Shown here: one piece after another, positions 22,170 through 25,127 of the stretch
How the letters are laid out: each line of letters starts with the position of its first letter
Numbering within the stretch: the stretch's first letter is position 1
DNA from: Variovorax sp. EL159
Lineage (GTDB): Bacteria > Pseudomonadota > Gammaproteobacteria > Burkholderiales > Burkholderiaceae_C
Direction: 5' to 3'
Assembly: GCF_900100965.1 (NCBI RefSeq)
Contig: NZ_FMUJ01000001.1
Span: 110,272-174,271, forward strand
DNA length: 64,000 nt
Position numbers and translations under genes: made by a program
Notes under the pieces: model-generated
What the model was told of the DNA's origin: nothing
The model's database searches: none
Seen by the model: the letters and a program-made list of their open reading frames with translations, nothing else

Positions 22170-23420
22170 TCAGAGCCTGAAGGTCTGCAGGTGCTCGATG
22201 CGCTCGGCGAGCCCTTCTTGCCCCAGGTAGTGGCCGTGCTTGCCATCGGCCATCTTCGCGAGCGAGGTTTCCAGTTCGAGCAGCATGGCATCGCGGTCCG
22301 CCACGAAGGCCGGCGGCACATCGATGCCCGCCTGTGCGCAGGCGTCCGCGATCAGGTGCGCGCTCGCGGGTGCGCCGCAGGCGGCGCACTTCACGATGGC
22401 CGCGACATTGGGCTCGGCGCCGTTGGCCAGCAGCGCGCTGGTGAGTTCGGGGGCGATTTGTCCGTCGATGTTGCGCAGCGCATCCGCCGCCACCGGCGCG
22501 CCCGCGCGCACCAGCGCCGCGGCGGTGGCAAAGGCGCCGTGCCCGACGGCGATGTCGGTTGCGAGCGCGCTGCCATGCACCGGCCCCTCGAAACTCACGC
22601 CGGCGGCCGCGAGCTGCACGATCAGCGCCGCGTCGTCAGTGGCAATCGCATGGCGCAGCGCCACGCGCGCAAGAGCTGGTCGATGGCGCAGCGTGGCCTC
22701 GGCCAGCGGTGTGCGCCAGTCGAGCACGGCGCGGGAATAGAAGGCGACCAGCTTGTCCATCAGGTCGAGGTCCAGTCCGTGGTCCTGGTGCCGGTCGTCG
22801 AGGTATTCGAGCAAGGTCTGCCCCGAGAAGTAGTCGCCCGCCGGGGCCAGCGGATCTTCTTCGAGGTGCAGTGCCGCGAAGGCGCCGTGCAGGTCGGTCG
22901 CGACGGTGGTCACGCCGTCTTCGTGCAAGGCATGCGTCCAGGCGGGCGGCAGGCCCTTCTTCCACGCGACGATGTGGCCGTGTTCGGCGCCGGGCTCGAC
23001 CACCGCGTAGATGCGGTCGGTGTACTCGAAGCCGCCGAACGGCAGGTGCGTGAGCTTGCCGCTCCACGGCGTGCCGCTTTCGTCGGCGGCGTCTTCGGCC
23101 AGCTCCTGCTCGTGCTCGATCCAGCCCTGCAGGTCGTGGTAGCCGTCGCTGCCGTCCCAGAACAATTCCGTCCAGCTGATGGCCTCGATGTTGCCGTTCA
23201 TCTCGAGCGTCAGGTCGTAGTCGAGCCGGCCACCCGACGTCTGCTGCCACAGCGCGACCAGTGCCTCGGGCAGGGGCCCCGCGCACAGCGCCTGCACGGC
23301 CGCGATCTGCTGCGCCGGCATCGGCGGCTGCGCATCGAAGATCACGCGGTCTGCGAACAGCACGATGCCGTGCTTGCGCAGGGTGGAGAGCTCGTCGGGT
23401 GCAAACCGGATGTCGTTCAT
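22170..23420 (-). CDS. SMI1/KNR4 (SUKH)-like protein with ankyrin-like repeats
   Basis: A 416-residue cytoplasmic protein. Residues about 40-190 read like a SUKH/SMI1-KNR4 domain (LPEALVALWQQTSGGRLDYD, then ISWTELFW and a PFGGFEYTDRIYAV strand region). Residues about 250-350 contain irregular ankyrin-like helical pairs (AIATDDAALIVQLAAAGVSF, AFATAAALVRAGAP, LTSALLANGAEPN), and a helical C-terminus follows. SUKH proteins are often immunity proteins of toxin systems. No toxin is adjacent, but the retron-type RT gene ends 70 bases upstream on the same strand, so it may be a retron accessory gene. A separate sigma-70-like promoter (23446-23473) argues for at least partial independence. The ATG at 23420 follows a CGGAG. 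Confidence 0.65.
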   Translation of the reverse strand: MNDIRFAPDELSTLRKHGIVLFADRVIFDAQPPMPAQQIAAVQALCAGPLPEALVALWQQTSGGRLDYDLTLEMNGNIEAISWTELFWDGSDGYHDLQGWIEHEQELAEDAADESGTPWSGKLTHLPFGGFEYTDRIYAVVEPGAEHGHIVAWKKGLPPAWTHALHEDGVTTVATDLHGAFAALHLEEDPLAPAGDYFSGQTLLEYLDDRHQDHGLDLDLMDKLVAFYSRAVLDWRTPLAEATLRHRPALARVALRHAIATDDAALIVQLAAAGVSFEGPVHGSALATDIAVGHGAFATAAALVRAGAPVAADALRNIDGQIAPELTSALLANGAEPNVAAIVKCAACGAPASAHLIADACAQAGIDVPPAFVADRDAMLLELETSLAKMADGKHGHYLGQEGLAERIEHLQTFRL

Positions 23421-23490: not shown

Positions 23491-24915
23491 TCATGAGGGT
23501 GGTTGCGTCGTGTGCGGCGTTATCTGCGTCGTCATGTGCGTCGTCACCTGCGGCCATTCGATGCGGTCGAACAGGCGCATCAGCCGGACCTTGCGGCCGT
23601 GGTTGAACTGCCCGATCCACGCGATGTGGCCCAGCAGGTGGCCGCGAAAGTCACTCACCCTTGCGCGGTTCTGGCCCGTGGGGCCGTGTAGCACGCATTG
23701 ATGCAGCACGGCTTTCAGCCGGTCGAAGTCTTCGCGCGGCGCATTCGCCTTCTGGTTGACGACCACGCCGGTCACGCGTTGCTGGCGGTGTTGCGGCATG
23801 CAGCGCACCTTGCGCGGATGGAGCGTGAAGCCTTCATCGGCCGCGATGCCGCCGACCCAGGCCCTCAACGCCGTGAACTGGCTGCGCAGCGATGCGGGTC
23901 CCGAGAACACGAGGTCGTCGGCATAGCGCGTGTAGGTGGCACCGAAGACCCACGCCAGCCCTTCGAGCCGCAGGTCGAGCCGGAAGGCGCAGAGGTTCGC
24001 GAGCGCGGGCGAACACGGCGAGCCTTGCGGCAGATGCGGTGCAGCCAGGCGCCTGGCGCCCAGCCAGTCGAGGCCACCGTCGTCACGCAGCCGTTCCACC
24101 ACCGCGCTGTCGGTGCGGTGCGTGCACAGCGCGGTGAGGGCGCGCGCCACGCCCTCGGGGTAGCCCAGCGTGCGCCACGTCGCGTGCACGCGCGAGGCGC
24201 GAACGCTAGCAAAGAAATCGCACAGGTCGAAGCCGATCACCACCTCCTTGCCGGCATGCGCGGCCGCGTGGCTGGCGACAGAGCGGCCCTGCACGAAGCC
24301 GTGCGCCGCTTCGTGCACGGGCACGTGCTGCAGCAGGTCGTCGAGGATGCGGCGCTGCACGCGCTTCAGGTCGGCCTTTGGGATCTCCAGCAGACGAAGG
24401 CCGCCGAGGCGCTTGGGCTGCAACTGGTAGCGGTAGTGGGAGGCGGGGCGCGCACCGGCCGCGTCGGGCTCGCGAAAGCCTTGTGCCGCCGATGTGAGCC
24501 ATGCCAGGCGCTCGGGATCAAGCTCAAGCCACTGCGCGAGTTCGGACAGCGTGGGAACGTGCGGCAAAGCGAAGTGGTCCAGGCCCATCGGCCGCGGCAG
24601 CATCTCCGCAGGTCGCAGGATGATTCGCCGGACGCGGGGCAGATCGTCCTGCGCGAAGGCGAGGTCCAGCTCGGGCATGTCGTGGATCGCCTTCGCCAGC
24701 GCGGGCAGATCGGTGCGCCGCCATGTGGCTTGCGAGCGATTGCCGAGCGCTTCGGCGAAGGGCTTGAGCCACGGCGGGTCGGCGCCCAGCGTCGCGGCGG
24801 CCCGCGCACGCAGCGCATCGGGCGCGGTGCCGCCGGGCTGCCTGGCGTCGGCCAGCAAGGCCCGCGCAAGGCTGCGGGCCAGCCATTCCCTGTAGCTCAA
24901 CGCGCGCGTCGTCAT
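23491..24915 (-). CDS. Retron-type reverse transcriptase
   Basis: A 474-residue RT. Residues 1-160 are an N-terminal extension that includes a helical TLSELAQWLELDPERLAWL block typical of retron RTs. The palm follows: RT1 KRLGGLRLLEIPKADLK (168-184), HGFVQGRS (205-212), motif A FDLCDFF (229-235), motif B PQGSPCSPALAN (296-307), catalytic YADD (331-334) and the retron VTG (381-383) in RVTGVVVNQK. The retron NAxxH motif appears as HAAAH (216-220), with Asn replaced. There is no maturase or endonuclease domain, which excludes a group II intron protein. The region upstream folds as an msr-msd candidate. Retrons make msDNA and act mostly in phage defence. Confidence 0.85.
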   Translation of the reverse strand: MTTRALSYREWLARSLARALLADARQPGGTAPDALRARAAATLGADPPWLKPFAEALGNRSQATWRRTDLPALAKAIHDMPELDLAFAQDDLPRVRRIILRPAEMLPRPMGLDHFALPHVPTLSELAQWLELDPERLAWLTSAAQGFREPDAAGARPASHYRYQLQPKRLGGLRLLEIPKADLKRVQRRILDDLLQHVPVHEAAHGFVQGRSVASHAAAHAGKEVVIGFDLCDFFASVRASRVHATWRTLGYPEGVARALTALCTHRTDSAVVERLRDDGGLDWLGARRLAAPHLPQGSPCSPALANLCAFRLDLRLEGLAWVFGATYTRYADDLVFSGPASLRSQFTALRAWVGGIAADEGFTLHPRKVRCMPQHRQQRVTGVVVNQKANAPREDFDRLKAVLHQCVLHGPTGQNRARVSDFRGHLLGHIAWIGQFNHGRKVRLMRLFDRIEWPQVTTHMTTQITPHTTQPPS

Positions 24916-24945
24916 GAAGGTGATGAGGCCGATCGATGAAGGTGG

Positions 24946-25117
24946 GCGGCAACCAGCCCTTCAACCAGCCGGTGATGCGCCAGCCGTGCTGCGCGTCAGC
25001 GCAGTCGGGCTTGCGCGCCGGAACGTGTAGCCATCCATCCACCGCGGGGTTTCCCCGCAGCACAAGGCAGAACGACGAATCGCATCGCCTTGTCGAGTCT
25101 TGAAGTGCTGGTGCCGC
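24946..25117 (-). ncRNA. Candidate retron msr-msd RNA
   Basis: Read on the minus strand, the 172-base interval begins and ends with an imperfect inverted repeat: a1 (25117-25100, GCGGCACCAGCACTTCAA) pairs with a2 (24964-24946) over 17 of 18 positions with one bulge. Inside are hairpin 1 (ACAAGGC/GCCTTGT, 25093-25087 with 25068-25062, a UUCG-capped ministem in its loop), hairpin 2 (GCGGGG AAA CCCCGC, 25058-25044) and a long msd-like hairpin (25021-24969) with 4-bp, 9-bp (one mismatch) and 6-bp helices and a 4-base loop. It ends 31 bases before the RT start codon, the normal retron order. The branching G and exact msDNA ends cannot be fixed. Confidence 0.75.
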
Positions 25118-25121
25118 GCGG

Positions 25122-25127
25122 ATTGTA
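25122..25127 (-). promoter_or_regulatory. Candidate -10 box of the retron RNA
   Basis: TACAAT on the minus strand lies 4 bases before the 5' end of the a1 repeat, so transcription would begin at or inside a1 as in known retrons. No good -35 hexamer is visible 16-18 bases upstream. Confidence 0.45.

Follow-up and report, generated by a model that had tools for sequence, protein, structure and literature searches.

A candidate two-part retron in Variovorax and related bacteria: a covarying msr-msd RNA and a reverse transcriptase with a conserved N-terminal domain

The locus and its reverse transcriptase

The window, the whole stretch of 64,000 nucleotides analysed here, comes from the 7.0 Mb genome of Variovorax sp. 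EL159 and carries a structured RNA and a reverse transcriptase (RT) gene, both on the minus strand, between kynA (tryptophan 2,3-dioxygenase) and an SMI1/KNR4-like gene (22173-23420, minus strand). In the window, kynA lies directly upstream of the RNA hairpins and is separated from the SMI1-like gene by 1741 bp. The RNA, 172 nt in length, is matched at 24943-25121 (minus strand) by a covariance model, R1, and its a2 end lies 30 nt from the ATG of the RT gene (23491-24915, minus strand), which encodes a retron-type enzyme of 474 amino acids. A reading made from the sequence alone had proposed an undescribed retron composed of an msr-msd RNA and an RT. Covariation and RT profiles support a retron of this makeup, whereas 'undescribed' was an overstatement: the RT family is present in PADLOC-DB as RT_other and RT_outgroup, and it is the upstream RNA that no Rfam family matches. 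That the element is a genuine retron, an RNA-plus-enzyme pair common to many related bacteria, is well supported by the comparisons of homologous sequences set out below.

The YADD, HGF..GRS, VTG and HAAAH motifs originally read from the translation are all in place. Against the PADLOC-DB profiles, the RT scores 467 bits with RT_other, 442 with RT_outgroup and 307 with RT_XIII, and the NCBIfam profiles give 165 bits for retron_St85 (below its cut-off of 235), 38 for group II and 31 for Drt2. The 14 best solved chains are all retron RTs, with Ec86 first (E = 1.3e-28). In a tree of 43 rows, the RT falls in a starred 22-row clade (96/94) together with other RTs possessing a long N-terminus and an RT from a Dietzia plasmid, and the clade excludes the St85, Ec67 and type XIII rows as well as the only group II row; several long branches and one open deep fork make the outer placements of this tree unsure. 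The RT is also distinct from the RT_XIII family by score (467 bits for RT_other versus 307 for RT_XIII), and its clade is separate from the type XIII RT of the same genome (L020). Derivation from a group II intron, a DGR or an Abi/DRT system is highly improbable: the group II and Drt2 scores are weak and reflect a shared domain, the former (37.9 bits) standing against an NCBIfam cut-off of 300, and the PADLOC and NCBIfam profiles, the solved chains, the tree and the upstream RNA all argue against such an origin. Assignment to the retron type, rather than to the group II, DGR or Abi enzymes (the latter two within the coverage of the profile libraries), is well supported by these comparisons and agrees with the initial placement of the enzyme; neither of the two outcomes that would have spoken against the initial reading, stems free of covariation or an RT of one of those other classes, was observed.

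Among 32 aligned RTs, a set that includes a few partial or broken sequences, YADD is present in every one, the first residue of region X is H in 29 and N in one, and region Y starts with VTG, ITG or LTG in 21 and with VCG, VCN or VCH in nine, the remaining two being different. In the window RT itself, region Y opens with VTG, and HAAAH stands in place of the region X motif NAxxH; according to a 2019 review (PMC6868368, cited here and below from excerpts), NAxxH and VTG are each found in 14 of 16 validated retron RTs. As two of these 16, Mx65 and Ec48, also lack the region X Asn (PMC6868368), NAxxH is not strictly defining. HAAAH had been taken as a mark of divergence; it does characterise the clade, but in view of these two validated retrons its weight as evidence of divergence was overstated. 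A structure prediction of the whole RT from 15 sequences was poor (mean pLDDT 55.0) and was discarded.

A structured RNA upstream of the reverse transcriptase

The RNA was compared across upstream regions of loci with an RT at least 41% identical and a GGGG..CCC pattern within 400 nt. Removal of near-duplicates gave 45 regions, from which L034 was left out by choice, resulting in an alignment of 44 rows. This selection makes the invariance of the hairpin 2 core partly circular and leaves the other helices unaffected; the pattern was present for every RT with the N-terminus, none being lost for want of it.

Read along the minus strand, the RNA is preceded by a -10-like box, TACAAT (25122-25127), located just 5' of the first arm, as initially noticed. 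In the box of the first row, A2, A5 and T6 reach a conservation of 90% or more, and a box is found in 39 of the 44 rows by a loose pattern, a few of whose matches lie inside a1. The a1 arm, which forms the 5' end of the msr (25100-25117), pairs with the a2 arm at the 3' end of the RNA (24946-24964) through 17 pairs with one mismatch and one single-base bulge, bearing out the inverted repeat proposed before; a2 is defined by both fold pairing and covariation. A guanosine directly follows a1 at the sequence level, as in retrons. This base, at 25099, is the last of a CAAG and its column is invariant in the 44 rows, where the bases ending at this G read CAAG in 37, CGAG in four, GAGG in two and CCCG in one (L071 and L072 appear to be misaligned here). 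By analogy with characterised retrons, it would act as the priming G. The base that follows it is A in 17 rows, C in 14, T in 12 and G in one; C occupies this position in four of the five contexts listed in excerpts of PMC6868368.

Two small hairpins follow within the msr. Hairpin 1 (25062-25093), seen in the RNA fold, is variable in sequence and length and lies outside the consensus structure, whilst hairpin 2 (25041-25061) is a GGGGnnnCCCC stem-loop with nine pairs and 99.0% of cells paired; both had been recognised earlier, the second as a slightly shorter element at 25044-25058. The long hairpin of the msd (24969-25021), the template of the expected msDNA, comprises 13 consensus pairs in two helices. 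It forms in the cDNA strand when this is folded as DNA, with an unremarkable energy (z = -1.55; matched or bettered by 13 of 200 shuffles), and the minimum-energy RNA fold draws the region slightly differently. Support for the long hairpin, as originally proposed, therefore comes from covariation and not from its own fold energy. Just 5' of a2 lies a conserved ACCGGCTGG (24965-24973), in which the first A, the first C and one G are invariant in the 44 rows, and where reverse transcription would be expected to start. The RNA fold of 24944-25120 as a whole reaches -92.6 kcal/mol compared with -76.46 (sd 4.1) for shuffled sequences (z = -3.94; none of 200 as good). The claim that the arrangement exceeds chance is upheld by the comparison of homologues, although it is not carried by the fold of a single sequence.

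RNAalifold, applied to an alignment made from sequence only, returned 27 pairs across the 44 homologues, 21 of which show two-sided changes. Standard pairing at these 27 pairs occurs in 94.0% of cells, versus 78.5% in shuffled alignments and 37.6-45.5% when the structure is slid along the alignment, and there are 171 two-sided cells versus 44.8 and 21-44, respectively. None of 500 shuffles reaches either the observed share of paired cells or the two-sided count. The shuffle control ignores the kinship of the rows, which the slid control keeps; because the scored structure was obtained from this alignment, it has an advantage over its slid versions. All five consensus pairs of a1/a2, the innermost ones (the outer pairs fall outside the count), show two-sided changes, as do 13 of 13 pairs of the long hairpin, the two helices of which are paired in 94.5% and 93.4% of cells; the covariation sought in these two elements is thus found in every pair counted. 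This column-based count replaced an a1/a2 cross-pairing control, a loose test in GC-rich sequence, in which the arms of one locus frequently paired no better with each other than with foreign arms (41 of 43 foreign partners were as good for L064 and two of 43 for the window copy, L019) and which therefore spoke neither for nor against the pairing. The RNA next to the RT therefore has paired a1/a2 ends enclosing an msr and an msd, and the comparison across homologues establishes the upstream 172 nt as a real structured RNA belonging with the RT.

Distribution, unit boundaries and possible effectors

Model R1 was built from 28 of the aligned RNA sequences and searched over 399 genomes of the family, 30 of which gave a match. 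All 28 genomes with the RT (E <= 1e-80) have an RNA match, which in every case precedes the RT on its own contig and strand; the count is not independent, as no fewer than 21 of these genomes contributed their own sequence to R1. The model also matches loci outside its training set (L014, L070, L056, L068, L032, L071, L072, L033, L136 and L137), the first four of which have close kin within it, and gives a partial match to L138 from Dietzia (27.5 bits), likewise outside the training set, and a weak one to L034 (20.1 bits). In G381 a match has RT fragments downstream, the RT being broken, and a match of 37.4 bits in G134 was taken as spurious, no RT being found in the 12 kb around it. Over 398 genomes drawn from the phylum, two matched, the source genome itself and G067. 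The filters in both genome searches were stricter, at the cost of weak matches. R1 is silent upstream of RTs without the N-terminus (L020, L035-L038, L048 and L049). Several weak matches were rejected as msr-msd candidates, namely antisense ones in the window, L136, L137, L070 and L032, two of 12 bits elsewhere in the window, and one of 15.4 bits in L049 that does not lie on the upstream side of the RT.

An RT orthologue with at least 76% identity is found in 12 of 61 Variovorax genomes, that of EL159 included, and two of these copies are broken (G029 and G045). Broken RT copies occur at L015/L030, L016/L031, L170 (G381) and L117, which indicates that the element is dispensable. At L170, L015/L030 and L016/L031 the RNA is still in place, and at L117 (G497) a 35-residue C-terminal remnant of the RT lies beside the SMI1-like gene, as though the retron had been lost by deletion. 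Mobile copies are few. Four relatives on viral contigs, from a scan with two short patterns, are 29-34% identical, and a coverage of 80% of the RT is reached by none of the phage records and by five plasmid or chromid records, each at less than 60% identity; carriage by phage was rejected, there being no close relative in the viral contigs or phage records. Plasmid pII of Dietzia sp. (L138) bears a family RT in an actinobacterium, downstream of merA and with the partial RNA match just upstream.

The retron site in Variovorax, in loci with enough sequence, lies between kynA and the SMI1-like gene; at L005/L022 kynA was not found upstream and at L008 it is farther away. The SMI1-like gene is present in 67 of 81 Variovorax genomes (E <= 1e-50) and is widespread in the genus independently of the retron. 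Among the best 30 of these 67 loci, 14 carry the RT (two in pieces), one a remnant, and the other 15 neither, kynA and the next gene being 40-192 bp apart at these empty sites. Because the hairpins directly follow kynA in the window, they could be read as terminating or attenuating the kynA operon and as having nothing to do with the RT. This reading has next to no probability and is refuted by the empty sites, where only that short interval follows kynA, and by the RNA accompanying the RT even where kynA is not upstream.

The same loci bear on whether the downstream gene is the effector of a tripartite retron. In the window, as in Variovorax loci with enough sequence, the SMI1-like gene comes after the RT in the same orientation, as an effector might, but it is carried by most Variovorax genomes and present in 15 RT-less loci among the best 30, was not found beside the RT in other genera, and matches SUKH-1 below the Pfam cut-off (21.9 versus 25.4 bits). 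This role is very improbable and was ruled out on account of the RT-less loci and the wide presence in the genus. The sequence-only reading described an effector as a frequent part of retrons; none was found next to the window RT, nor was a linked effector gene of at least 80 residues identified for the family. Within three genes of the RT, no neighbour family recurs in more than five of 32 distinct loci (35 minus L081, in which the RT was not called, and two duplicates). Genes were called here by a simple method down to a length of 80 residues, so that a very small effector could be missed, as could a fast-changing one. The two families that reach five loci contain release factor RF3 and a sensor kinase, respectively. 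Nine neighbours compared with Pfam comprise ShlB, AHCY, CoA-transferase, UbiA, porin, GST and sensor kinase proteins, a protein that matched no family and a Phd-type antitoxin. The last, a Phd/YefM-type gene at L086:8333-8659 (plus strand), begins 3 bp after the RT and is the only one of its kind among the nine. Given the empty sites, the occurrence of the downstream gene without the retron and the lack of a recurrent neighbour, the unit, as delimited by comparing loci, appears to consist of the RNA plus the RT only. The locus is very probably a complete two-part retron made up of one msr-msd RNA and one RT; no linked effector was found.

Two accounts of how such a unit could be used without an adjacent effector have to be weighed. 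Defence genes typically show a patchy distribution and broken copies; both are seen here, which would fit an anti-phage retron working through a trans-acting effector encoded at another site in the chromosome. This account is somewhat unlikely; characterised retrons typically defend through an effector (PMC12548924, in excerpt), whilst the absence of any neighbour family from more than five of the 32 loci and the mostly ordinary families among the nine Pfam-checked neighbours, the single antitoxin at L086 apart, speak against it. Rather unlikely is the alternative that the element makes msDNA as a housekeeping or neutral component with no role in defence. The single fixed site in the Variovorax loci read (L005/L022 and L008 excepted) and the scarcity of copies in viral, phage and plasmid records are in keeping with this, but dN/dS values of 0.11-0.45 against eight Variovorax copies denote purifying selection, and repeated loss speaks against an essential role.

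The N-terminal domain, a proposed mechanism and known retrons

The N-terminal extension of the RT noted from the sequence is real. It includes a domain of approximately 95 residues (24631-24915, minus strand) that is recognisable across the RT clade (22 sequences) and is predicted by AlphaFold2, from residues 1-125 of the window RT, to form six helices (mean pLDDT 70.3; block values of 73-88 over residues 11-90). Against the eight Variovorax copies, residues 1-95 have dN/dS values of 0.12-0.45 and the RT domain values of 0.11-0.17, so the N-terminal domain is under constraint, somewhat weaker than that on the RT domain. The window's domain has no Pfam match, and a Pfam scan of the 22 N-termini returned 13 families, each in a single member (best E = 0.0055), which were taken as chance. 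A sequence profile search of the PDB gave a circular repeat protein (E = 2.2e-05) with no stretch passing alone, likewise attributed to chance. With the predicted model, neither Foldseek (best E = 5.7) nor VIA over 46 chains (best Z = 2.7, rmsd 4.4 over 75 residues) found a usable match. The domain thus has no recognised relative beyond this group of RTs; weak or absent matches do not make the fold new.

A sequence of events can be proposed for the element, its first four steps resting on comparative evidence and on analogy with characterised retrons. To judge from the conserved box and the gene order, the RNA would start just after TACAAT, the RT being read further along that strand. The a1 and a2 ends, the pairing of which is demonstrated by covariation, would then anneal, leaving G25099 unpaired beside the duplex. 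The RT would bind this RNA, prime from the 2'-OH of G25099 and copy the msd in reverse, starting immediately inside a2 and passing through the long hairpin, to give a predicted branched msDNA whose DNA part would be roughly 60-80 nt long. In a fifth step, the RT-msDNA complex would act alone or through a partner encoded elsewhere. The confidence placed in the retron covers its two-part makeup and does not extend to this last step. Here, the conserved helical domain fused to the RT may, tentatively, do the job of an effector or of an effector's partner, and such a built-in effector or adaptor is the preferred, though unproven, reading, with an effector in trans close behind. A broader version, in which the N-terminal domain has replaced a separate effector to give a self-sufficient family of one RNA and one protein, is possible but doubtful; such a family would span genera of the Burkholderiales and possibly, judging by the Dietzia plasmid, reach the Actinomycetota. 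To our knowledge, the retron Mx162 has no linked effector.

Among known systems, Ec86 (Eco1, type II-A) is the best solved relative and shares the order msr, msd, RT with the window; it differs in having approximately 330 residues in the solved chains, an NAxxH motif and an operon that includes an effector. A closer comparison within the genome is provided by L020, a type XIII retron with a retron RT and a long N-terminus, as in the window, which differs in scoring 634 bits against RT_XIII, retaining NAAPH, carrying a C-terminal extension, belonging to another clade and giving no R1 match. This second retron RT (L020:904-3048, minus strand; G000:C5, approximately 1095608-1096438) is 715 residues long and ends in an Ala-rich linker and hydrophobic segments; the gene upstream of it shows, by eye, a SWIM-like CxC..CxH pattern, and the intervening stretch is strongly conserved. 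A Variovorax strain has been reported by PADLOC to carry a type XIII retron, and the element described here is absent from that mention (PMC11953036, as excerpted).

The window RT shares an extended N-terminus with the myxobacterial retrons Mx162, Mx65, Sa163 and Ne144, the likeness being one of description only, and the lack of the region X Asn with Mx65, whereas the priming context is CAGC or GAGC in the myxobacterial retrons and CAAGN in the window family (PMC6868368). The presence of such extensions in myxobacteria, and the reach of both PADLOC profiles, RT_other and RT_outgroup, into the N-terminal region, make the extension less distinctive than was first thought. Excerpts of the same review argue for vertical inheritance of Mx162 and Sa163 and place cyanobacterial RTs in one group with those of myxobacteria; in the present tree, a single Nostoc plasmid RT falls near the Ec67 rows and may be of another kind than the cyanobacterial RTs of the review. 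A figure legend there names Betaproteobacteria as one of the groups for which no retron had been validated experimentally (PMC6868368), which makes the family a candidate for the first validated betaproteobacterial retron, unless later work has filled this gap.

The retron is a known kind of element, and the RT family is already catalogued in PADLOC-DB. The RNA of the family was not found described in the literature retrieved, which included the accessible parts of PMC6868368, PMC9252829, PMC11953036, PMC8934634 and PMC12548924, and an earlier description may exist. New here are the RNA family with its covariation, its tight link to an RT clade, the empty sites and the finding of no linked effector. 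Covarying RNA and empty sites together delimit the retron closely, so that the role of retrons lacking a linked effector becomes testable with two short parts, and a short RNA with a single RT would be convenient for producing DNA in cells. RT_other (PDLC02949) and RT_outgroup (PDLC03740) are the top two PADLOC-DB profiles for the window RT and also for a relative from Burkholderia pyrrocinia and one from Dietzia; these profiles cover the protein only.
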